64,000 bases of DNA. It comes from Acholoe squamosa. Taxonomy: Eukaryota > Annelida > Polychaeta > Phyllodocida > Polynoidae. Under the pieces are notes generated by a model, which did no database searches, was not told the DNA's origin, and was given only the letters and a program-made list of their open reading frames with translations. Position numbers and translations under genes: made by a program. Below are positions 34,026 through 60,940 of this stretch, one piece after another (position 1 is the first letter of the stretch; the number at the start of each line of letters is the position of its first letter). The stretch lies in contig OX439036.1 of NCBI GenBank assembly GCA_949317995.1, positions 8,536,356 to 8,600,355 on the forward strand, in the 5' to 3' direction.

Positions 34026-36126
34026 GCTTATCTTTTCACACATAAACTAGTTTGTACCCTATACATGCTGTCTTTCAGGTACCTCAATAGTAGTTGTCAT
34101 CTCACCCCTTGTTGCGCTTATGGAGGAGCAGATTGTGCGCATGAACACACTGGGGGTCCCAGCTGCTTACCTTGGTTCCGCTGAAAATACACCTGGTGAG
34201 TTAATTTCCTTGTCTAATATGGATTTACTGCTATTGCAGTCTTTATAGCCATGCATTAAAATATTGTGACTTTTCATTTCCTTTATTTTTCTTTCTATAT
34301 TTCAATGTCGGCTAAAAGAACAAGCTATATAAATCATCCTGTTGTTTATTGTTTATTTCTGATCTATGCCAATATAATTATGGTGTGAAATAATTACATT
34401 ACATCATGACTTGGAATAATTTGTAAACTATGTCCTTTTCTGTCAGAAACACTGCAGCAAGTCCGGGATGGGAAATTTCCAATCGTAATGTTAAGTCCAG
34501 AAGCCGTGTTTACAGAGAAGTGGCGTGATGTACTTGACTCTCCAACATACCGATCGCGAGTAAAGACCATAATTGTTGATGAAAGCCATGTCTGCGTTAT
34601 CTGGTAGAGTATTCATCTTTTTAAATGTTCCCTATCATAGAACCTCCCGTATAAAAGCTGCACTTTCACCCAGAACCTGTCTTTTAGAAAAAGCTACTGA
34701 AAGTATATAAAATCCTCTCCAACACTTTCATGCTAATATACCTCTTATCAAATAACTGAGATTTTCTTTCAATACTAAACTTAATGTCATACCTGTTCAA
34801 CCTGAAAAGATCTTCCTACTTTGATTATCAACTTCCAGAGGGAGACTAAAAGAGATAACTTATAGTTAGATTATCTAGAAATGCAAAACTTTCCTATATA
34901 AATTTACAATGTTTGCATTATATCTAAGACTATACCATTTTGCCAAAAAGTTTCTTTTCATTACTTTCAAGGGTTGACAAATTCCGCAAGGATTATGGAC
35001 GGATTGGAGAATTCAGGAGCTTGCTGCCAAATGCCAATTTGTTGGCATTAACAGCCAGCGCCCCACCGAGCATGCAGCCAAAGATGTTTGAGATATTATG
35101 CATGAAGCCCAAAAAGGTCCGGGTAATAGAACTATCAACAGACCGGCCAAACATCTTCTACACCTGTGTACCAGGCACACTAACTATTGATTCCTCACTG
35201 TATTGGTTGGCTAATGAGTTGAAGGAAAAGAAGTTGGAATGCCCCAAATACATCATATATTGTAGGAGTGTGAAGGAGTGTGCTCTGTTGTACGATTATT
35301 TCGAGGAACAGCTTGGCGATGAGGCATACCTTGGAGTGCCTTCCTTTCAGAGTAGGCTTTTTGGCATGTTCCATAGACCGATGAAGAAACGCAAAAAAAG
35401 GTTTATAGTGGAGACATTCTCCCAACCAGACAGCCCTGTAAGGGTTGTGATTTCCACAATTGCGTTTGTATGGGGGTCGATGTGCCCGATATAAAAGGTG
35501 TGCTCCATTGGGGTGCCGCAAAGACCTTCGAGGGTTTCTTTCAGGAAAGTGGAAGGGCTGGCCGCAATGTAGAAAAAGTTCCACATGCCTTTTCTTTAGT
35601 CTACTATAAAAACACAAACATTAGTAGCATAGCATGTGCCTCCAACATGAGAAAGTACTGTCTTAATGAGGATGCTAAGTGTCGTAGATCCTTTATTTCA
35701 AACCACTTTTCCCCCAACATACCTGCTGCAGCACTGACATTTAAACACAACTGTTGTGATGTCTGTCAAAAAAAGTGCAAATGCGGTCACTGTCCTGAAC
35801 ACTTTCCTCCTCCACTTGAAATAACTGACACAGAGCTAGCTCACCTATCCATTTACCCACAATCATCTGTTCTCGGGCGCAACATCACAAACAGTCAAAA
35901 GGATGTTTTGAAAATTGCCCTTCTATGCCTAAGAGATTCTTATGACCTCGACTGCTCATTCGTGAATGGGGCATTACGCACAGGAGTGGACGATAAAAAA
36001 GTGGTCAGCATTGTAGAAGGGGCGACTCAAATATATTCTGTCGATGATCTAATGACCGAATATCTGTATGACACAACCATTGCCCTAGCAGTAATGAGGA
36101 AAATTGATGAAGTATTTGATGACTAG

Positions 36127-38702: not shown

Positions 38703-39930
38703 TTATGCTCTTCTATCAAATCATGACATGTACGTATTTGTCATGGAGAAATGGTGGGTGACAAGAGTAAAGCACTTCAGCATACTTATTCCCTTCTACC
38801 AAAACATAACATGTATTTTCCATGGTGGAACATTACCATAACAATAGTGAAGTATGTTAGTATACTTATTCTCTTCTATCAAATCATGACATGTATTTGT
38901 CATGGAGAATGATTGGTGACAATAGTAACGTACAATGGTAAAGGTGAACGATGTTGAATTTGAGGCGTCCATTTCTTCACGAGCGGGATTCACGAGTGTG
39001 GATCGAACCAGACCCGCTCGCGAAGAAACTTCTGTCAAATCATGACATGTATTTGTCATGGAGAAATGGTTGGTTACAATAGTTAAGTAATTCAGCATAC
39101 CTATTGCCTTCTACCAAAATACAACATGTATTTGTCATGGGGGAATCTTACCATGACAAAAGTAAAGCACTTTAATATTCTAGTTCTATTAAATCATGAC
39201 ATGTTTTTGTCATGGAGAAATGGTTGGTGACAAGAGTAAATTACTTAAGCATACGTATTCCCTTCTACCAAAAAATGACATGTATTTGCCATGGTGGAAC
39301 ATTACCATAACAATAGTAAATTATGTTCGTATACTCATTTTATTTTCTATCAAATTATGACATGTACTTGACATGGAGAAATGATTGGTGACAATAGTAG
39401 AGTACTTCACCAAACCTATTGCCTTCTACCAAAATATGACATGTATTTGTCATGGTAGAACCTTACCATGACAACAGTAAAGCACTTTAATATTCTAGTT
39501 CTATCAAATCACGACATGTTTTTGTCATGGAGAAATGGTTGGTGACAAGAGTAAATTACTTCAGCATACGTATTCCCTTCTACCAAATAATGACATGTAT
39601 TTGCCATGGTGGAACCTCACCATGCCAATAGTAAAGTATGTTAGTATACTTATTCTCTTCTATCAAATTATGACATGTATTTGTCAGGGAGAAAGGATTG
39701 GTGACAATAGTAAACAACTTCACCATACTTATTGCCTTCTACCAAAACATGACATATTTGCCATGGTGGAACCTCACCATAACAATATCAAAGTATGTTA
39801 GTATACTTATTCTCCTCTATCAAATTATGACATGTATTTGTCAGGGAGAAATGATTGGTGACAAAAGTAAAGTATTTCACCATACTTCTTGCCTTCTACC
39901 AAAATATGACATGTATTTGCCATGGTGGAA

Positions 39931-40113
39931 TTGATTGATTGATTGATTTGTGTTTTACAGCACTTTAGCGGCACTAAGTGGCTATCCCGTGCTTCACAGG
40001 TTGATAATTTAACAGAGGAATGTGTCAGTGCCCGTGCATATGTGCACCACACACATCCTGAGGGGATAGGAAAGAGGAGATATAGACCCTTTTAAGTGGG
40101 CTAGGGAAGCCCG
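39931..40113 (-). mobile_element. SINE insertion with 13-bp target duplication
   Basis: Flanked by TGCCATGGTGGAA at 39918-39930 and again at 40114-40126, which is satellite sequence duplicated on insertion. Read on the minus strand it starts GGGCTTCCCTAGCCCACTTA and ends GCTGTAAAACACAAATC plus a (CAAT)n tail. Its 3' half differs from copies with the GCGTTAAACA tail, so at least two 3' variants exist. Confidence 0.9.
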
Positions 40114-42110
40114 TGCCATGGTGGAACCTCACCATGACAATAGTAGAGTATGTTAGTATACTTAGTCTCTTTTATCAAATTATGACATGTATTTGTCATG
40201 GAGAAATGGTTGGTGACAATAGTTAAGTAATTCAGCATACCTATTGCCTTCTATCAAAATATAACATGTATTTGTCATGGTGGAACCTTACCATGACAAC
40301 AGTAAAGCACTTTAATATTCTAGTTCTCTTCTATCAAATCATGACATGTACTTGCCATACTAAGTAATTAAAACTATTTATTCCCATACATCACATCATG
40401 ACATGATACCAATTCCCCTCTACCAAATCATGACATGCATGTGCTATGGTGAAACGGAAACAACATTGAAGTACTTTAGGATCTAATTCCCTTCTATCAA
40501 ATCATGACATATATTTGCCATGGTGAAACCAGGACAACAATAAAGTTCTTTAACATACTAATTCCCTTCTAATAAACTATGACATGTATTTGCCATGTTA
40601 AACCTGAGACAACATTAAATTACTTTAGTATAGGAATTCCATAAATACCAAAACATGACATGTATTTACCATGTTGAAACTGAAACAAAATTGAAGAACT
40701 TAAGTATGCTTATTCAATTCTGTATAAACATGACATGCATTTGACATAGTGGAATGTTAGGGTGACAACAGTAAAGCATTTTAATATTCTCATTCCTTCT
40801 ATCAAATCATTACATGTATGTATTTGGCATGTTGAAACTGAGAAAAAATAAATGTACTTATTCCCTTTAAATAAAACATGACATTTATTTACCATGTTGC
40901 TACAGAGACAAAATTAAAGTACTTTTGTATCTTTATTGCCCTCTACCAAAACATGTTAAAACCGAAAGAAGTCTACTAATAATGATCTTGAAAGTGGAAA
41001 GAGTGAAGTTGTTGTACCTAGAATAATTAATTTTCATTCATGGCATGTCACATTTCTGTCATGTTGAAATGTGGACAAGGTGTAAAATGAATAAATCAAA
41101 TCCAAAACCTTCAATACCTTCCTAGTACATAGGATTTATTTCCTAATTGAAATCTGGATGTCCATAGTCACAATTTGCCTTTTCTCCTGATGCAAGGCAT
41201 GCATTTGCCTTGCATTAATCTTGATGAGAAAAATAGGATTGGAATATTTGCCTCAAACTATTAAAACATGACATGTATTTTTCACATGGAAATGTTTAGT
41301 GACGGTGGTAAAGTACTTCAGCATTCTTATTCACTTCTACAAAGACCTGGCAGATATTTGCATGGTGCAACCTTTCCATGACAACAGTAAATTACTTTAG
41401 CAATCTTATTCCCTTCTATCAAATCATGACATGTATTTGCCATACTACAACCTCACAGTGACATATTTATTCCCTTATATAAAGTTATAACATGTATTTG
41501 TTATGTTGAAACCAAGACAACATCAAAGTACTTTAGTATACTAATTTCCTTCTACTACAACATCACATATATTTGCCATGCTGGAACCGGAACAACAATA
41601 AAGTACTTTAGTATACTCATTCCCGTCCAGCAAATCATGACATGTATTTGCCATGGTGAAACCAAGACAATATTAGAGCACTTTAGGAAATTCAACACTG
41701 GCCAAAATGACCTGTGTGGAAATTGTCTACACGGGACATTTTTGTCTTACACCCAAAACTTCTGGTGGGGCAGGTGTACTTTGCAGACACTGCTTTATTA
41801 TACTGATTCCCCTCTACTAAAACATGTTATGCATTTGCCATGCTAAACATCTTATCTTGACAATGGTAAATGGCTTAGTATTTTTATTCCCTTCTATCAA
41901 AACATGACATGTATTTGGCATGGTGAAACCAGGACATTAAAGTATTTTAGTATGCAGTTCCCTTTTCCTAAAACATGACATGTCTTTGCTATGCTGAAGT
42001 CTTATGGTGACAATGGTCAAGTACTATAGTGTACTTATTCCCTTCTGCTAAAAATATAGCATGTATTTACCACACTAAAGTGTTATTGTGACAAGAGTAA
42101 TGAAATGAGA

Positions 42111-51950: not shown

Positions 51951-54595
51951 CTTAGTGCAGTTAATGGTAGCAGCACTCTGTGAGGCCCTACAGCAGCTTA
52001 GTACTGGTACCGGCACTCTGTGAGGCCCTACAGCAGCTTAGTACTGGTACCGGCACTCTGTGAGGCCCTACAGCAGCTTAGTACTGGTACCGGCACTCTG
52101 TGAGGTCCTCCAGCAGCTTATTACTGGTACCGGCATTCTGTGAGGTTCTACAGCAGCTTAGTGCTGCTACCAGGACTCTGTGAGGTCCTACAGCAGCTTA
52201 GTACTGGTACCGGCACTCTGTGAGGTTCTACAGCAGCTTAGTACTGGTACCGGCACTCTGTGAGGTCCTACAGCAGCTTAGTACTGGTACCAGCACTCTG
52301 TGAGGTCCTACAGCAGCTAAGTGCCGGTACCAGCACTCTGTGAGGTTCTACAGCAGCTTAGTACTGGTACCGGCACTCTGTGAGGTCCTACAGCAGCTTA
52401 GTACTGGTACCAGTACTCTGTGAGGCCCTACAGCAGCTTAGTGCTGCTACCAGGACTCTGTGAGGTCCTACAGCAGCTTAGTACTGGTACCGGCATTCTG
52501 TGAGGTTCTACAGCAGCTTAGTGCTGCTACCAGGACTCTGTGAGGTCCTACAGCAGCTTAGTACTGGTACCGGCACTCTGTGAGGTTCTACAGCAGCTTA
52601 GTACTGGTACCGGCACTCTGTGAGGTCCTACAGCAGCTTAGTACTGGTACCAGCACTCTGTGAGGTCCTACAGCAGCTTAGTGCCCGTACCAGCACTCTG
52701 TGAGGTTCTACAGCAGCTTAGTACTGGTACCGGCATTCTGTGAGGTCCTACAGCAGCTTAGTACCGGTACCGGCATTCTGTGAGGTCCTACAGCAGCTTA
52801 GTGCCGGTACCAGTACTCTGTGAGGTTCTACAGCAGCTTAGTGCTGCTACCAGGACTCTGTGAGGTCCTACAGCAGCTTAGTACCAGTACCAGCACTCTT
52901 TGAGGTCCTACAGCAGCTTAGTACTGGTACCGGCACTCTGTGAGGTCCTACAGCAGCTTAGTACTGGTACCGGCACTCTGTGAGGCCCTACAGCAGCTTA
53001 GTACTGGTACCAGCACTCTGTGAGGTCCTACAGCAGCTTAGTACCGGTACCAGTACTCTGTGAGGTTCTACAGCAGCTTAGTGCCGCTACCAGGACTCTG
53101 TGAGGTCCTACAGCAGCTTAGTACTGGTACCAGCACTCTGTGAGGCCCTACAGCAGCTTAGTACCGGTACCGGCACTCTGTGAGGTTCTACAGCAGCTTA
53201 GTACCGGTACCGGCACTCTGTGAGGTCCTACAGCAGCTTAGTACTGGTACCAGGACTCTGTGAGGTCCTACAGCAGCTTAGTACCGGTACCGACCCTCTT
53301 TGAGGTCCTACAGCAGCTTAGTACAAGTACCAGCACTCTTTGAGGTCTTACAGCAGCTTAGTACCGGTACCAGTACTCTGTGAGGTCCTACAGCAGCTTA
53401 GTACCGGCACTCTGTGAGGTCCTACAGCAGCTTAGTACCGGTACCGGTACTCTGTGAGGTCCTACAGCAGCTTAGTACTGGTACCGGCACTCTGTGAGGT
53501 CCTACAGCAGCTTAGTACCTGCACTCTGTGAGGTCCTACAGCAGCTTAGTACCAGCACTCTGTGAGGTCCTAGAGCAGCTTAGTACTGGTACCAGCACTC
53601 TGTGAGGTCCTACAGCAGCTTAGTACTGGTACCAGTACTCTATGAGGTCCTACAGCAGCTTAGTACCAGCACTCTGTGAGGCCCTGCAGCAGCTTAGTAC
53701 TGGTACTGGCACTCTGTGAGGTCCTACAGCAGCTTAGTACTGGTACTGTCACTCTGTAAGGGCCTACAGCAGCTTAGTACTGGTACCGGCACTCTGTTTG
53801 GTCCTACAGCAGCTTAGTACCGGTAACAACACTCTGTGAGGTCCTACAGCAGCTTAGTACCAGCACTCTGTGAGGCCCTGCAGCAGCTTAGTACTGGTAC
53901 TGGCACTCTGTGAGGTCCTACAGCAGCTTAGTACTGGTACTGTCACTCTGTGAGGTCCTACAGCAGCTTAGTACTGGTACTGTCACTCTGTGAGGTCCTA
54001 CAGCAGCTTAGTACTGGTACCGGCACTCTGTGAGGTCCTACAGCAGCTTAGTACCTGTACCAACACTCTGTGAGGGCCTACAGCAGCTTAGTACCGGTAC
54101 CAGTACTCTGTGAGGGCCTACAGCAGCTTAGTACTAGTACCGGTACTCTGTGAGGGCCTACAGCAGCTTAGTACCGGTACCGGTGTTCTGTGTGGGCCTA
54201 CAGCAGCTTAGTACTGGTACCGGCACTCTGTGAGGTCCTACAGCAGCTTAGTACCGGCACTCTGTGAGGTCCTACAGCAGCTTAGTACCGGTACCGGCAC
54301 TCTGTGAGGTCCTACAGCAGCTTAGTACCAGTACCAGCACTCTTTGAGGTCCTACAGCAGCTTAGTACCGGTACCGGCACTCTGTGAGGGCCTACAGCAG
54401 CTTAGTACCGGCACTCTGTGAGGTCCTACAGCAGCTTAGTGCCGGTACCAGTACTCTGTTAGGTTCTACAGCAGCTTAGTGCTGCTACCAGGACTCTGTG
54501 AGGTCCTACAGCAGCTTAGTACTGGTACCAACACTCTGTGAGGTCCTACAGCAGCTTAGTACCGGTACCGGCATTCTGTGAGGTCCTACAGCAGT
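51951..54595. repeat. 40-bp minisatellite, about 66 units
   Basis: The unit is CAGCAGCTTAGTACTGGTAC, then CGGCACTCTGTGAGGTCCTA. Most units are exactly 40 bp and highly similar. From about 53400 onward some are about 32-34 bp because the GGTACC part is missing. Each unit contains in-frame stops and 40 is not a multiple of 3, so it is not coding. Higher-order patterns (GTGCTGCTACCAGGACTCTG every few units) are visible. Confidence 0.96.
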
Positions 54596-54810: not shown

Positions 54811-54826
54811 CTCATAGATTCGGTCA
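54811..54826. repeat. Target-site duplication of the LINE, left copy
   Basis: CTCATAGATTCGGTCA, immediately before a T12 tract that is the complement of the LINE 3' A-tail. The same 16 bp occurs at 60337-60352 and 60353-60368. Confidence 0.93.
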
Positions 54827-55237
54827 TTTTTTTTTTTTGTTTTGAATTCACTTTATTTGTCAAAATTTATTTCATCGTAAGTAGTTAACGGTAAAGACAA
54901 TAATATTGACAAAAGGCAAAGAGGAAAATATAACTGGACAAGTTGTTAGACAATAAACAAAATGAGAGTCAATAGTATTATGAGTTCAGGTTCAAGTAAA
55001 GACAAAAAAGAAGGCAGAGGACCTCATCCCCACAGAAGTGTTTGGGTTGATACTTCTGGTCCTACCTGACTTATAGATTATTATAGAAACTTATGACACT
55101 TAATTATACAAAAACTAATAATGTGGAGAATACGGGGGGGGGGTATACTAGTATATCAGCGAAATAAAAGTAACAGTGAGTTATCAATCGGAAGGTAATT
55201 CATGTACACACATCACGCATCACATAATAGTGGTGGA

Positions 55238-58108
55238 CTAAGCCTCATCATAGGGCAATAAGCTTTTCAACAGAGTATTTGTATCATTTTTAAATTTTTT
55301 AAATTCCAAAGTGTTTCTTCGATCTTTAGATAAGGAGTTCCAAGTAATGGCACCATTGAATTCTACACTTTTAGCATAGGAAAGACAGTTTGGGGTAATA
55401 CATTTTACCATGGGGGCATCATGTAAACGAGTATTTAGATTTCTTTTGTCACTATACATATCACATCTTGATCGATTGTACATGTAATTTAATAAATGAG
55501 CTTCTCTCCTATCATCCAGCATATTCACTCTAGAGGTATTATGTACATATTTGGTATTGGTTAGGTGCGGAACCTTTAAACAAATTTTTAAACACCTGTT
55601 TTGTGCATATTGGAGTGGGTCCAGATACTTATCATAAGTAGACATGAATATAATATCTGCATATTCCATATAAGGTAATATAGTTGATTTGTATATTTGT
55701 ATAGCCAATTTGACATCTAGATATTTTCTTAGTAAACATAGTTTGTAAGTCTTGTATGCTATAGTTTTGACTTGATTAGTTAAATGCAGGTTGTAAAGAA
55801 GAAGTGGGTCCAATAAAACACCTAAGTACTTATAACTGGGTACGACTTGTAATAGTTGATCGTTTAGTTTGATGTTAGCGGTTAGTGTATTTAATCTCCT
55901 TGTACTGGAGGAGAAAAACATAATTTTTGTTTTAGAGGCATTTATGGATAACTTGTTTTGTATACACCAGGTTTCGTAAGCCTCTAAGTCATTCTGTAAA
56001 TATGTTTTTGCTTGGTCAAAGATATTATGGGAAGAGTATATAACAGTATCATCAGCATATAGTCTAACATCACAATTTTTCACACATTTAGTAACATCAT
56101 TGACATAGATTAAAAAAAGTAAAGGGCCTAAAATCGAGCCCTGGGGTACGCCACATAATACTTTAGCTCGATCAGATAGTATTCCATTAGCCAAGGTAGT
56201 TTGGTATCTGTTTTCTAAATAATTTTTAAACCAGTGATATGTATTCGATCGGATACCATAGTGGTGTATTTTGGTTAGTAAAACTGAGTGGTTTACAGTA
56301 TCAAAAGCTTTCTTGAGATCTATAAAAGCAGCTACTGTTGACTTACCCACATTTAAATTTCTTTTAATGTCGTCAGTAAATTTTGCCAATGTATCAATAG
56401 TACTAAAGCCAGACCTGAATCCACCCTGCTTCGCTGTTAGTATGTTTTCTTTTATTAAAAATCCATAAACTCGATTATGTACAATTTTCTCTATTAGTTT
56501 ACCTGGTAAAGGAAGTAGTGAGATCGGTCTATAATTGTTTACTAATTTCTTGTCACCCGCTTTGGGTATAGGGGTAACCTTTGAAATCTTCCATGAGTTA
56601 GGGATACAATTTTGGGCAAAAGACAGATTGAAGATTTTGACTAATTTAGAGGGAGCATGCTTAAAAACTGTTTTTAGTATAGTTGAAGATATATTTTCAA
56701 TGGCTGAAGACTTAATAGTTTTTATATCATGTACCAGTTTAACTACTTCCTGTACATTGGTTTCAATATTATCAATTTGATTCATCACATATTCATCGTA
56801 TGGTTTCCATGGTATAAATAGGTTTTTGGCAAGCAAGGGACCAATATTAACGAAATACTGGTTGATAAAATCAGGAACTTTTTCCTCTTCAATCGGATTA
56901 TTATTATTCTCATGATCAACTAGTGAGATTTTATTTGATCGATTGGGGTGACCCGGTAGAATATTATTAATGGTTCTCCAGAATTTTTTATGGTCACTCT
57001 TGTGTACTTCCAGTTGTTCTTTAAAGAAATTTTTTCTTGCTTTATTTATAATTTTGTTAGCTTTATTTCGTGCTTCTCTTAATGATTTCCAGTCTTCCTC
57101 CTTACCAGATCGTCTTGCTTTCCAAAGTTTCGCATTTTTTTCGCGTATAATCTCATACACATTTTGAGACATCCAGGGATCCCTATATTTATTAACCAAA
57201 AATTTATGAACTGGACAGTATTTATCCAGGATTTTCCTTATAGCTGATTCCATATGAAACCAAGCACAGTTTACATCATTGGTATTATTGAATACATTCC
57301 AATCATAAGCATCAAATTCCCTCAATAGTGTATTATTATCTAATTTAGAGTATGATCTACCGGTAATATAGACCTTTTCAGTTTTTGTTTTCCATTTCTT
57401 TCTTATCAGAAACACTGGTAAATGATCAGTTATAATATTATTACAGACACCCGTGTAGATATAATTCCTTCTTAAATTGGTGAAAATCAGGTCTAGTATA
57501 GATTTTTTCCTAGTACCAGACTTAATTTCTTGATTTAAACCAATGCCCTTCATCTTATTCAATAAGTCGTGGACATATTCGCAATCTTCAGTAATATTGA
57601 AGTTAAAATCGCCCATGGCTATAATTTCATATTGATTTTTATCGTCTATTGTAGAAACCTTTTCAATTAATGTATCTATAAAAACAGATTTAGACCCGTC
57701 AGGGGGTCTGTACACATTAAATAGTAAGATCGGTTTCATATGTTCCTTAGTTATAGTAATACATTGGAGTTCGATATTAGGATCTGAGTGGAGTAATGTA
57801 GAGTATTTATCATAATCATGTCTCAGTCCCTGCTTAATATAGATACATACACCACCACCAGTTTTAATATTGCCTTTTTCATCTAGCACTTGCCTATCTA
57901 ATCTATACCGTGTATAGCCAGAAAATTGATAATTCGATTCATCATCTTCACTTTTAAACCAAGTTTCAGAGAAAGTAAAAATTTCAAAATTAGCAGGATA
58001 AATTTCAGCACAGATACTAGCATAATTACATTTAAAGCTACGAGCATTCATATGCATCAGTCGTAGACCCTTGGTGCTTGATAGGTCATTCAGTAATGTG
58101 TGTTGCAT
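55238..58108 (-). CDS. LINE ORF2: endonuclease and reverse transcriptase, 956 aa
   Basis: Residues 1-235 form an apurinic-type endonuclease: LMHMNARS (17-24), SETW (Glu48), NVYRPPDG (131-138), MGDFNFN (165-171) and ITDHLPV with Asp228-His229. Residues about 505-745 form the reverse transcriptase: NNYRPISLLP (524-533), AFIDLKKAFDTVNH (594-607), GVPQGSILGPLLF (653-665) and LYADDTVIYSS (683-693) with the catalytic YADD. The C-terminal 200 residues match the usual tail of CR1-group proteins. The endonuclease nicks the target and the reverse transcriptase copies the element RNA from the nick. There are no stops or frameshifts. Assignment within the CR1/L2/Rex1-type group needs a tree. Confidence 0.96.
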   Translation of the reverse strand: MQHTLLNDLSSTKGLRLMHMNARSFKCNYASICAEIYPANFEIFTFSETWFKSEDDESNYQFSGYTRYRLDRQVLDEKGNIKTGGGVCIYIKQGLRHDYDKYSTLLHSDPNIELQCITITKEHMKPILLFNVYRPPDGSKSVFIDTLIEKVSTIDDKNQYEIIAMGDFNFNITEDCEYVHDLLNKMKGIGLNQEIKSGTRKKSILDLIFTNLRRNYIYTGVCNNIITDHLPVFLIRKKWKTKTEKVYITGRSYSKLDNNTLLREFDAYDWNVFNNTNDVNCAWFHMESAIRKILDKYCPVHKFLVNKYRDPWMSQNVYEIIREKNAKLWKARRSGKEEDWKSLREARNKANKIINKARKNFFKEQLEVHKSDHKKFWRTINNILPGHPNRSNKISLVDHENNNNPIEEEKVPDFINQYFVNIGPLLAKNLFIPWKPYDEYVMNQIDNIETNVQEVVKLVHDIKTIKSSAIENISSTILKTVFKHAPSKLVKIFNLSFAQNCIPNSWKISKVTPIPKAGDKKLVNNYRPISLLPLPGKLIEKIVHNRVYGFLIKENILTAKQGGFRSGFSTIDTLAKFTDDIKRNLNVGKSTVAAFIDLKKAFDTVNHSVLLTKIHHYGIRSNTYHWFKNYLENRYQTTLANGILSDRAKVLCGVPQGSILGPLLFLIYVNDVTKCVKNCDVRLYADDTVIYSSHNIFDQAKTYLQNDLEAYETWCIQNKLSINASKTKIMFFSSSTRRLNTLTANIKLNDQLLQVVPSYKYLGVLLDPLLLYNLHLTNQVKTIAYKTYKLCLLRKYLDVKLAIQIYKSTILPYMEYADIIFMSTYDKYLDPLQYAQNRCLKICLKVPHLTNTKYVHNTSRVNMLDDRREAHLLNYMYNRSRCDMYSDKRNLNTRLHDAPMVKCITPNCLSYAKSVEFNGAITWNSLSKDRRNTLEFKKFKNDTNTLLKSLLPYDEA

Positions 58109-58429
58109 ATATAAATAATATCAAGTTGAGCAGTATAGAATACACTTGTTACAGAATAAATTTTATATATACAATTACAACTAGAGCCCCCCCGGACTCC
58201 ATAAACAATTATCAAATATTTTACCACGAAAGGGGCATAGGCCTTAGTGCCGCACCCTCTACCGGTATAGTAGGATTTCATCAGTTGATACAGGTGTGTT
58301 GAATCATAGCAGCAGCATGAAAGCGATCAAAAAACAAATACATGGGATAAGGTGGAAACAATTCTGTATTTAAATATAGGTATGTAATAACTATATGGGT
58401 AAGTAATATATATATATATACATCAATAT
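58109..58429 (-). other. LINE inter-ORF spacer
   Basis: 321 bp between the ORF1 stop and the ORF2 start. It contains a short (AT)n tract near 58409-58420. Confidence 0.7.
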
Positions 58430-59992
58430 TTAGTTTCTTTTAGCATCTTGTAGCCTAACTTCTTCAGCTGTTGGTAGTGGGTTTTCATTTGTATGCTTGT
58501 ACCTGAGTTTCATAAGCATTTCCCCCAGTTTATTAGAACATTCAAGTTGGTTGTGGGCCACATTTTTTATAGTTATTTGGTCTCTCTGACCTAGGTGGAA
58601 GCCAATACCATAGGTGTTGTGGTATGTGGCCTCGTACAGGTATTTTCCTTTGGAGTCAACCAAGGCTTGGAGTAGGTTAGGCTGTGCAAATTTTATTTCA
58701 AGTAATCTGCTCATAACCTCTTCATCAATGTCGTACCAGTCGTTCGAGATATTACATTGTTTGGCTACGTACATGCTGTCCATAGGAGTCTTAGCAGTGA
58801 GGACCTTCCTTAAGGTGTTCATCTGGTTACTAACTATACATTTCTTAGCATGATAGGCCCTTTCCACTGAGTCGTATTGTTGGTTTTCAAATGTGATGGG
58901 ACATTTGTATAGATTAGAAAATATAGAATGTTCTCCTTGGAAAGCTAGCCCGTCTGGGGTTTCAATCGTCTTAGCATTCTTTAGAGACAAGTCGTATGGT
59001 AGATTATTGATTTCCTTGTATGGGAATAACTTGCCTTCTATCACCAAGTTTGTACCTTTGGCAGTACAGTCAATTTCTTTACTTCTGGCTAGGGCCTGTA
59101 TTGCCCTTACGTCCTTCTGCATTCTTTTCTCCTCTGGTGAAATATCGTCTGCAAGGTGTAGTCCCTTCCATGTAGGGTTTCCTTGAAGTTTCTTGATATT
59201 CCCAAACATTCTCAATTTGTATTGAGCAGAGGAAAACACTACAACTACTGGTCGGTTTGGTATCTTGAAATGAGGATTCTTTTTTTTTTGCTGGGGGGTT
59301 GGGATTTTCCTTTTGCCTCTACGGTAGATTGCTTCAGCAGCAGTGTTGTTAAAGTCCAATGAGAGGTCATGCAGAAGCTGATCCAATGTTTCTCTTAGAC
59401 TCGCAGGCTTGTCTTCATTTAGACCTTCAATAATGAGGATTTTTTTCTTACGGTCTACATCAATACGTGTGAATTGGTCTTCATGTTTATCTGTTAAACT
59501 GCGAATTTTCCCAGTTTCAGCTACATTACTTTCAATTTTATCACTGTGGGTTGATACTGATTCCTCCATTTCAGTGAGTTTTTGTTCAATCTTTGGTATT
59601 GACATTGACTCGTTCGCAGGGAAGCCATTAGGACCAAATAAGCGAAGTTCCATTCCGCGCAGTAACCGTACCGTGCTTTGATTTATGGTTTCCTGGGATT
59701 TTAAGCGAGCTTCCAGTTCATTTACCTTATCTACCAGGTCCTTTGTGCTGGCTTTATAGTTTAATTTCGGTAAATATTTCATTTCTTCACCTTCTGAATC
59801 AGAATTTTCAGGTTGTGGTATGTTGATTTTAGTCCTACCGGAAGCCGCCATCTTGGATCTGGCTGTATTGGGTAGAGCTAGGTGCGGAGAAAGTTTCGTA
59901 CTTCTAGTGGCTTTTTGCGACATAAGTTTCGGAGTTGGTATGGACCAAGGTGTAATACAAATTTGTACAAAAATATAGTGAAAACTGTTCAC
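58430..59992 (-). CDS. LINE ORF1: coiled coil, RNA-binding region and C-terminal NADAR (YbiA-like) domain
   Basis: The frame is 520 codons. The likeliest start is Met48 (59851), in the context CCAAGATGGCG. Residues about 84-180 look like a coiled coil. Residues about 184-335 resemble the RRM plus C-terminal part of L1-type ORF1 proteins (KKILIIEGLNED, PVVVVFSSAQYKLRMF, ADDISPEEKRMQKDVRAI). Residues about 349-500 match NADAR: FQGEHSIFSNLY (351-362), YDSVERAYHAKK (373-384), DW (418-419), KF (434-435), YEATYHNTYGIGF (453-465) and SNKLGEMLMKLR (486-497). Family-conserved positions Glu377, Ala382, Lys384, Trp419, Asn487, Gly490 and Met494 are retained. The usual Trp before the GxG is Tyr461. NADAR enzymes remove ADP-ribose from guanine bases. 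Some CR1 ORF1 proteins carry a different C-terminal enzyme, an esterase; here NADAR takes that place. Confidence 0.88.
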   Translation of the reverse strand: MNSFHYIFVQICITPWSIPTPKLMSQKATRSTKLSPHLALPNTARSKMAASGRTKINIPQPENSDSEGEEMKYLPKLNYKASTKDLVDKVNELEARLKSQETINQSTVRLLRGMELRLFGPNGFPANESMSIPKIEQKLTEMEESVSTHSDKIESNVAETGKIRSLTDKHEDQFTRIDVDRKKKILIIEGLNEDKPASLRETLDQLLHDLSLDFNNTAAEAIYRRGKRKIPTPQQKKKNPHFKIPNRPVVVVFSSAQYKLRMFGNIKKLQGNPTWKGLHLADDISPEEKRMQKDVRAIQALARSKEIDCTAKGTNLVIEGKLFPYKEINNLPYDLSLKNAKTIETPDGLAFQGEHSIFSNLYKCPITFENQQYDSVERAYHAKKCIVSNQMNTLRKVLTAKTPMDSMYVAKQCNISNDWYDIDEEVMSRLLEIKFAQPNLLQALVDSKGKYLYEATYHNTYGIGFHLGQRDQITIKNVAHNQLECSNKLGEMLMKLRYKHTNENPLPTAEEVRLQDAKRN

Positions 59993-60336
59993 AACTCCTC
60001 AGGAAAAGAGACTCCCCAGTCTTGTATGGTGTTGTAGTTATTTAGACATCAATTTAGCTTGTTTACAAACCGTAGCAATCGACAAATTTATGGGCGCCGC
60101 CATGTTGGATTTTTCTTCAGTATCAAGAAGACGGAACTTACAAACATCAAAATATCCAAGGTATGTACATGAAACTGTCTGAAGAATCCATAGATACATT
60201 CACCGATCCTTCCCACGTCGATGGTTTGTAAAAATATACTTTGAGCAATGAGGTTTCGCTGTTAAACCGCTATATGCTGCACTCTGTCCACGCCACACGA
60301 GTTCAGCCCTGTGCCATTGTTTCGCTTTCGATTCAT

Positions 60337-60368
60337 CTCATAGATTCGGTCACTCATAGATTCGGTCA
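60337..60368. repeat. Target-site duplication of the LINE, right side, two tandem copies
   Basis: CTCATAGATTCGGTCA at 60337-60352 and again, directly abutting, at 60353-60368. One is the ordinary target duplication. The extra copy is probably a by-product of 5'-end joining during insertion. Confidence 0.9.
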
Positions 60369-60479: not shown

Positions 60480-60940
60480 CTAAGTAATGGCATATATTGA
60501 CTGTTTGCTGACAAATAGTGAGAAATTACTAACAAATATTGATTAATTGCTTACAAATAGTGAGCAATTACTGACATATATGGACTAATTGCTGTTATAT
60601 AGTGACTAAGTGCTAACATATATTGATGTATTTTGACTAATCACTGACAAAAAGTGAGTAATTACTCACTCTTTGTCAGCAATTAGTCAAAATATATCAG
60701 TAATTACTCACTATATATCAGCAATTAGTCAATACATGTCAGTATTTACTCAGAATTCATCAGCAGCTAGCCAATATACGTCAGTATTTACTCGCATTTT
60801 AATGAATAAATGTTAGTAATTACTCACTAGCAGTTGGTCAATATATGTCAGTAATTTCTCACTATTTGTCAACAATTAGTCAATATATATGTCAGTAATT
60901 ACTCGCCATTTATCAGCAATTAGTCAATATATATATTTAG
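60480..60940. repeat. 42-bp satellite that reverses orientation
   Basis: Units contain TCAGTAATTACTCACTATTT then GTCAGCAATTAGTCAATATA. From 60490 to about 60655 they read in the opposite sense (TGACAAATAGTGAG, ATATTGATTAATTGC). The switch is at a perfect palindrome, AGTGAGTAATTACTCACT (60654-60671). The whole is a large inverted repeat built of tandem units. Confidence 0.87.

Follow-up and report, generated by a model that had tools for sequence, protein, structure and literature searches.

The 64,000-nucleotide stretch of the Acholoe squamosa genome analysed here (positions 8,536,356 to 8,600,355 of contig OX439036.1; referred to as the window) carries on its minus strand a long interspersed nuclear element (LINE) whose first open reading frame (ORF1) ends in a predicted NADAR domain. 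The identity of this domain is confirmed by profile comparison and, judged by its second frame (ORF2), the element is a NADAR-ORF1 LINE of another type than the Tx1 LINEs reported to carry the domain in the oyster Crassostrea gigas, where it is mentioned for the ORF1 of several elements in one sentence of a 2025 paper (PMC12477816; cited papers are drawn on in excerpt throughout, unless their main text is named). As NADAR-bearing ORF1s accompany three distantly related kinds of ORF2 within this one genome, the fusion is no peculiarity of oyster Tx1 elements.

ORF1 extends from its first ATG over 497 amino acids (58433..59923, minus strand; stop codon at 58430-58432), within a 520-residue frame which opens at an upstream GTG at 59992 and in which residues are numbered below. 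The order of its parts is a coiled coil, then an L1-ORF1p-like RRM/CTD region (approximately residues 179-340; 58973..59458, minus strand), recognized by a profile match and by the ratio of nonsynonymous to synonymous substitution rates (dN/dS), and then the NADAR domain including its margins (residues 341-505; 58478..58972, minus strand), recognized by Pfam and profile matches, dN/dS and catalytic-type residues. The Pfam NADAR model PF08719 matches residues 354-498 with an E-value of 1.9e-16 and 61.2 bits (cut-off 35.1), and TIGR02464 matches at 8.1e-16 with 58.6 bits, under its own cut-off of 73.7. Compared alone with the PDB, the protein has YbiA (2b3w) as its best match (E 0.0031), whilst a profile of 14 ORF1 proteins from the window family matches a NADAR structure (8bau, 1.3e-5) and YbiA 2b3w (3.5e-5) and no other entry at E <=0.01; all 14 proteins also match PF08719 at E <=0.01. 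A profile-profile comparison of these 14 with 15 standalone NADARs covered 151 columns (probability 95.8, E 7.6e-9).

A broader profile of 11 ORF1 sequences matched 8bau at 1.2e-29 and YbiA at 1.5e-21, and in addition the LINE-1 ORF1p entries 2ykp and 2yko (E ~4e-5, across coiled coil and RRM) and entries of the same protein without the coiled coil (2ldy, 0.0013; 2w7a, 0.009); its remaining PDB matches were nearly all to coiled-coil or fibrous proteins. It is through this profile that the coiled coil, RRM and CTD of a Type II ORF1p are recognized, the window protein alone giving no L1-ORF1p-type Pfam match at E <=1; nor did it give a Pfam match to an esterase. An initial annotation, made from the sequence alone, had described a LINE with an L1-like ORF1 part and a terminal NADAR and had listed motifs of the domain, including a single Trp (W419). 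These motifs are present, the profile search that it proposed was significant, and the architecture is borne out by the Pfam score and the PDB profile matches; its interpretation as a whole is partly supported.

Selection on ORF1 was estimated from 12 window-family copies in 66 pairs (65 usable for the RRM/CTD; L013, with its short frame, was dropped). Median dN/dS was 0.045 for the NADAR domain (bootstrap 0.029-0.067), 0.057 for the RRM/CTD (0.038-0.087) and 0.120 for the N-terminal/coiled-coil part (0.073-0.164), and wrong-frame controls on the same stretch gave 1.75 and 2.31. The comparison across copies suggested in the initial annotation therefore shows that the constraint on the NADAR domain at least matches that on the RRM/CTD and is stronger than that on the coiled coil. 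A sister subfamily (7 copies, 21 pairs) has a NADAR dN/dS of 0.063, and in ORF2 (seven copies, 18 of 21 pairs) the values were 0.059 for the endonuclease, 0.090 for the reverse transcriptase and 0.197 for the C-terminus. When the window family is set against its 60% sister, the NADAR comparison is saturated, with zero usable pairs, and the families outside these two and the young Tx1-like and type 3 copies likewise yielded none. As purifying selection is strong and both catalytic glutamates are kept, we conclude that the domain does a job, probably during the copying of the elements and perhaps against a host defence.

In the whole genome (1.48 Gb) a first look returned 3,224 NADAR candidates, of which 150 were scored, every one exceeding the Pfam cut-off. 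Twenty of the scored loci (L025-L044), hand-picked for differing scores, were fetched with 8.4 kb of surroundings, and a LINE ORF2 lies downstream on the same strand in 20/20. The window ORF1 had 3,647 candidate matches; 83 were scored, and 67 of the 83 are free of internal stops. Clustering of the sampled loci at 70% NADAR identity gives 12 families, a count which leaves out one broken locus (L003/L025), and an ORF2 type could be assigned to 11 of the 12, L005 having been fetched without its ORF2. NADAR-bearing ORF1s are also found outside this genome (P0001, P0002, P0123). Bacterial contamination is ruled out, the fetched frames sitting in contigs of 54-127 Mb together with LINE ORF2s. The mitochondrial COX1 is read by the invertebrate code (ATA Met, AAA Lys, AGA Ser), evidence against an echinoderm, hemichordate, cnidarian, sponge or vertebrate host, and the mollusc haemocyanin domain PF14830 had 0 matches in a search whose control gave no match either.

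The first type of ORF2, which from its size and C-terminal motif we presume to be CR1/L2-like, is that of the window element and of L026, L029, L034, L035, L041, L042, L044 and L027, and is approximately 950-967 amino acids long where complete. Against the seven other type 1 proteins compared, the window ORF2 scored from 185 (L042) to 422 bits, whereas against the two other types it reached only 70-126 bits, with L032 and L036 at 70 and 72 bits and L028 giving no match. It is not considered L1-like because its match to LINE-1 ORF2p (9.6e-14) is no better than that to R2 (5.8e-15). The second type, found in L028, L032, L036 and L043, is L1/Tx1-like; L032 matches human LINE-1 ORF2p at 5.8e-68, and its zf-RVT match of 24.6 bits is slightly under the cut-off of 27.5. 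With such an element in the same genome for comparison, Tx1 membership of the window element is rejected on these E-values.

The third type (L030, L031, L037-L040; a frame of 1,167 amino acids in L037, L039 and L040) matches LINE-1 at 1.5e-26 and R2 at 7.6e-19. Its ORF1 consists of a coiled-coil-like part, the NADAR domain and an esterase-like C-terminus of SGNH/GDSL kind (L030, L037-L040), which in L040 has the ZfL2-1 ORF1p esterase (4c1b) as its sole, weak PDB match (E 0.075) and a Pfam SASA match of 0.0017, under the cut-off. Type 3 is probably RTEX-like; RTEX elements can carry esterase ORF1s (PMC3905857). In L037-L040 and L030, ORF1 closes with a single TAG and ORF2 adjoins in the same frame (e.g., L040:4018-4050), the context of the TAG being near-identical in 5/5 copies, and the first Met of ORF2 in L040 and L039 is residue 157, within the endonuclease. 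This suggests that type 3 ORF2 is made by stop-codon readthrough or reinitiation.

A tree of 62 NADARs separates the LINE domains from the sampled group of standalone animal and bacterial proteins, except that YbiA, on a long branch, falls among the LINE domains. When YbiA is left out, a branch (98/86) has all 23 LINE rows on the same side, which is not so when it is included. A single clade for the type 1 domains is not rejected (p-AU 0.24), and the outside protein P0002 groups with the NADAR of the Tx1-like L032 (100/96). The simplest reading is one capture of NADAR followed by exchange of ORF1 between LINE clades, as has been proposed for esterase and PHD ORF1s (PMC4120745), although a single capture is not firmly claimed because branches in the tree are long and the standalone rows were drawn from best matches. 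The two top-scoring NADAR loci of the genome, L001 and L002, are 3.4-kb loci without any frame of at least 250 amino acids and look like standalone host genes. Their NADAR frames are 66-70% identical to their best match, P0005, with all checked ligand-contact residues intact, and they may be the source of the LINE domain or its host counterpart. Standalone animal NADARs, these two included, share the Pfam family and the catalytic glutamates with the LINE domains; they differ in being unfused to an ORF1 and, YbiA apart, in forming the sampled tree group outside which the LINE domains lie.

The initial annotation could not say whether such a LINE had been described. One had been, in the oyster, and the window element resembles it in having a YbiA-kind NADAR in the ORF1 of an animal LINE; however, the oyster elements belong to Tx1, within the L1 superfamily, whereas the window ORF2 is not L1-like, and the NADAR ORF1s of this host also occur with Tx1-like ORF2s and with a third ORF2 type whose ORF1 adds an esterase-like part. 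The same paper describes a NADAR in the Gypsy Pol of Ectocarpus, which is alike in that a retrotransposon has recruited the domain and different in that the element has long terminal repeats and the protein and lineage are others; blastp matches of that domain beyond Ectocarpus are nearly all bacterial (PMC12477816). Among the matches listed in a literature search for NADAR or YbiA and retrotransposons, with Repbase, closed papers and preprints outside its scope, this was the only paper to link them, and the main texts of a survey of ORF1 proteins (PMC4120745) and of two papers on mollusc LINEs (PMC10294476, PMC11203168) never use the term NADAR. The Type IV esterase ORF1s of CR1, L2, RTEX and Penelope elements offer a parallel, an enzyme domain in ORF1 being spread over several LINE clades with exchange proposed (PMC3905857, PMC4120745), but the enzyme fold differs from NADAR and the window ORF1 has no esterase match. 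The NADARs of DarT1-NADAR pairs and of animal RNA viruses belong to the same domain family and are likely to share their chemistry with the LINE domain, which is instead placed within an RNA-binding ORF1p in a genome without a DarT match.

We tentatively propose, with doubt slightly outweighing belief, that the NADAR domain catalytically removes ADP-ribose from nucleic acid, or carries out a close relative of that reaction, for the LINE ribonucleoprotein (RNP). ORF1p would package the element RNA through its coiled coil and RRM/CTD, and the NADAR module would work on the RNP as a glycosidase cleaving ADP-ribose, or a like N-glycosidic adduct, off guanine in the element RNA, the cDNA or the nicked target. 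Tethered in this way it would be well placed to clean template or target, with the result that ADP-ribosylation by the host or under stress would not block reverse transcription. The data show the element, the domain in its many copies and under constraint, the retained catalytic glutamates and the occurrence with three ORF2 types, while RNA packaging, catalytic activity, the substrate and an anti-defence benefit are inferred. NADARs have been found to hydrolyse guanine-linked ADP-ribose (PMC11543638), an activity common to those of E. coli and phage (PMC11125620), whilst the NADARs in polyproteins of animal RNA viruses have been argued to target macromolecular ADP-ribosylation (PMC9503650), and an activity that ADP-ribosylates DNA at guanine N2 is present in six clams (PMC11209040).

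The residues of the domain are described by the numbering and roles of the P. nicotianae NADAR (PMC11543638), positions being checked on the 8bau alignment with an offset of two. In that system hydrolysis of guanine-linked ADP-ribose requires E, K and E-or-D residues, with arginine tolerated in place of the lysine in vitro (PMC11543638). The catalytic-type residues of the window domain are E377, K384, E454 and W419. Across 16 family representatives (13 from this genome and 3 from outside; mean identity 31%) the equivalents of E43, W89 and E125 are invariant in 16/16, among 8 invariant columns altogether, and in the window family both glutamates (E377, E454) and the equivalent of K50 (K384) are present in 18/18 insertions, so that the catalytic positions are not randomised across copies, a possibility which the initial annotation had raised. 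At the K50 position type 3 elements have K (6/6), Tx1-like elements R (4/4), and nine of ten other loci have K and the tenth R. A glutamate at the distinguishing position of the last strand separates the YbiA subfamily (PMC11125620, PMC11543638), and E454, rather than D or H, occupies it here. The invariant glutamates argue for an enzyme.

Several observations weigh against this proposal. Within the window family D130 is replaced by H458 (18/18) and W133 by Y461 (17/18, with one gap), so that these ligand-contact positions are not as in the P. nicotianae protein. Over the genome loci, 25/25 copies of the window family and its sister carry H at the D130 position, where the remaining 20 loci keep D; at the W133 position 24/25 of these copies have Y (one gap), and the residue is mixed in loci outside these, type 3 and the Tx1-like group. 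Both residues are intact in the Tx1-like (4/4) and type 3 (6/6) loci. To judge by spacing, D130 and W133 are probably the D and W which in the nematode protein SNA-3 were changed along with an E as the counterparts of critical YbiA residues (PMC9303266). At the essential K50, M is found in 7/7 of the sister subfamily, whose adjacent K49 position is K, and C in P0001. The changed pocket positions argue for a differing substrate or efficiency, and the enzyme of the sister subfamily may be impaired; catalysis on the standard substrate is left open because of these changes. In addition, NADAR activity in vitro alone gave no antitoxin function in published tests (PMC11125620), and DarT (PF14487) has 0 matches in the host genome in a search to which one control genome was positive and which did not extend to pierisin/CARP-type enzymes; a host DarT partner and a place in a DarT-NADAR toxin-antitoxin pair find no support. 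The young Tx1-like and type 3 copies have NADAR dN/dS values of 0.31 and 0.25, which with few changes are weaker evidence of constraint, and the copies compared throughout were the best-scoring and mostly intact ones, which lowers dN over the whole of ORF1 and not in the NADAR domain alone. The anti-defence removal of ADP-ribose put forward in the initial annotation hence fits the biochemistry of NADARs and the case of the RNA viruses, whereas the altered pocket and the lack of a DarT match do not favour it, and its substrate is a conjecture.

Possibly, though this is rather doubtful, the domain is no ADP-ribosyl hydrolase and instead has a structural role in the RNP or binds RNA or nucleotides there. 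It could be likened to the retrotransposon esterase, which has been argued to serve membrane targeting (PMC4120745), and to the three-NADAR nematode protein essential in SL1 trans-splicing, an RNP role (PMC9303266); the H and Y in the window-family pocket and the M that replaces the catalytic lysine of the sister subfamily are also in keeping with it. However, the two glutamates in contact with the distal ribose do not vary in any of the representatives, a degree of conservation hardly needed for binding alone, and mutation of the catalytic-type residues of SNA-3 impairs its function, although its authors allow for an effect on folding (PMC9303266). It is improbable that the domain instead destroys a soluble immune signal derived from ADP-ribose, or a toxic metabolite. 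YbiA-type NADARs are N-glycosidases acting on riboflavin intermediates (reported in PMC9303266), and those of phages have been argued to act mainly on soluble ADP-ribose derivatives (PMC9503650); however, fusion to an RNA-binding protein would place the domain on nucleic acid, two pocket positions which seem important in YbiA are altered in the window family, and the NADARs of eukaryotic RNA viruses have been argued to act on macromolecules (PMC9503650). That the window ORF1 comes from a Tx1-type LINE as already noted in the oyster, with nothing new about it, is very improbable: Tx1-like NADAR elements do exist in this genome and P0002 groups with one of them, L032, but the window ORF2 is no closer to LINE-1 than to R2 and scores far below its type 1 relatives against L032 and L036. 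Chance resemblance or a neutral hitch-hiker can practically be dismissed, for although the domain is only approximately 20-28% identical to single standalone NADARs, the E-values, the Pfam matches of 14/14 family proteins, a dN/dS of 0.045 beside frame controls well above 1 and the 12 sampled families rule it out.

More speculative than de-ADP-ribosylation by the window element itself, and in our view unlikely, is the wider proposal that LINE families of three deep ORF2 types share an RNP-borne NADAR glycosidase, probably through exchange of ORF1, as a counter-defence against guanine ADP-ribosylation. If true, it would mean that animals restrict LINEs through ADP-ribosylating nucleic acid. No host process that holds retrotransposons in check through nucleic-acid ADP-ribosylation is known to us. 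What eukaryotic NADARs do beyond known systems has been called unclear (PMC11125620), and a constrained NADAR in many LINE families makes both such a role and the restraint of retrotransposons by ADP-ribosylation testable; the LINE domain should reveal which substrate is worth removing.

The whole insertion, in which both ORFs are intact, occupies 54827..60336 on the minus strand (approximately 5,510 bp), with its 5' end at 60336 and, at its 3' end, a poly(A) of A12 (T12 on the plus strand) at 54827..54838. Its borders are set by a target-site duplication of 16 bp, ctcatagattcggtca, whose left copy at 54811..54826 matches the right copy at 60337..60352 exactly, an additional tandem copy adjoining at 60353-60368; the 14-bp core of the duplication occurs 3 times in the window, against a mean of 0 in shuffles. 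The span of 58430..60352 given in the initial annotation thus begins correctly at the end of the ORF1 stop codon and runs to the end of the right duplication, the element itself being 54827-60336. Similarity to fetched copies starts mostly at 54826-54835 (55001 for L024) and ends at 60319-60325 (60200 for L010). The nearest fetched copy is 98.8% identical, its two overlapping pieces, L018 and L010, jointly covering 54831-60200. ORF2 (55238..58108, minus strand; 956 amino acids) encodes an AP-type endonuclease and a reverse transcriptase by its Pfam matches, RVT_1 at 6.5e-40, well above the cut-off, and Exo_endo_phos_2 at 7.9e-5 with 22.9 bits, under the cut-off of 27.4; in the genome it has 48 scored matches at 85-100% identity, its own copy included. 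An endonuclease (below the Pfam cut-off) and a reverse transcriptase in ORF2, a target-site duplication, a 3' tail and interspersed copies are the features of a LINE, and the element is a young and probably recently active non-LTR (long terminal repeat) retrotransposon.

A 40-bp minisatellite of approximately 67 copies (51965-54594) ends approximately 230 bp away from the LINE on its 3' side, and approximately 150 bp past the 5' end of the LINE lies an AT-rich stretch with inverted self-similarity (60481-60932), within which a 42-bp array is found (60657-60932). Elsewhere in the window, two overlapping ORFs of 184 and 218 amino acids lie on the plus strand at 34940-36126, the longer giving only weak hints of Helicase_C (E 0.03) and SGTA_dimer (0.086), and diverged adjacent arrays at 38704-40819 are built of 75-79-bp units with a common core.

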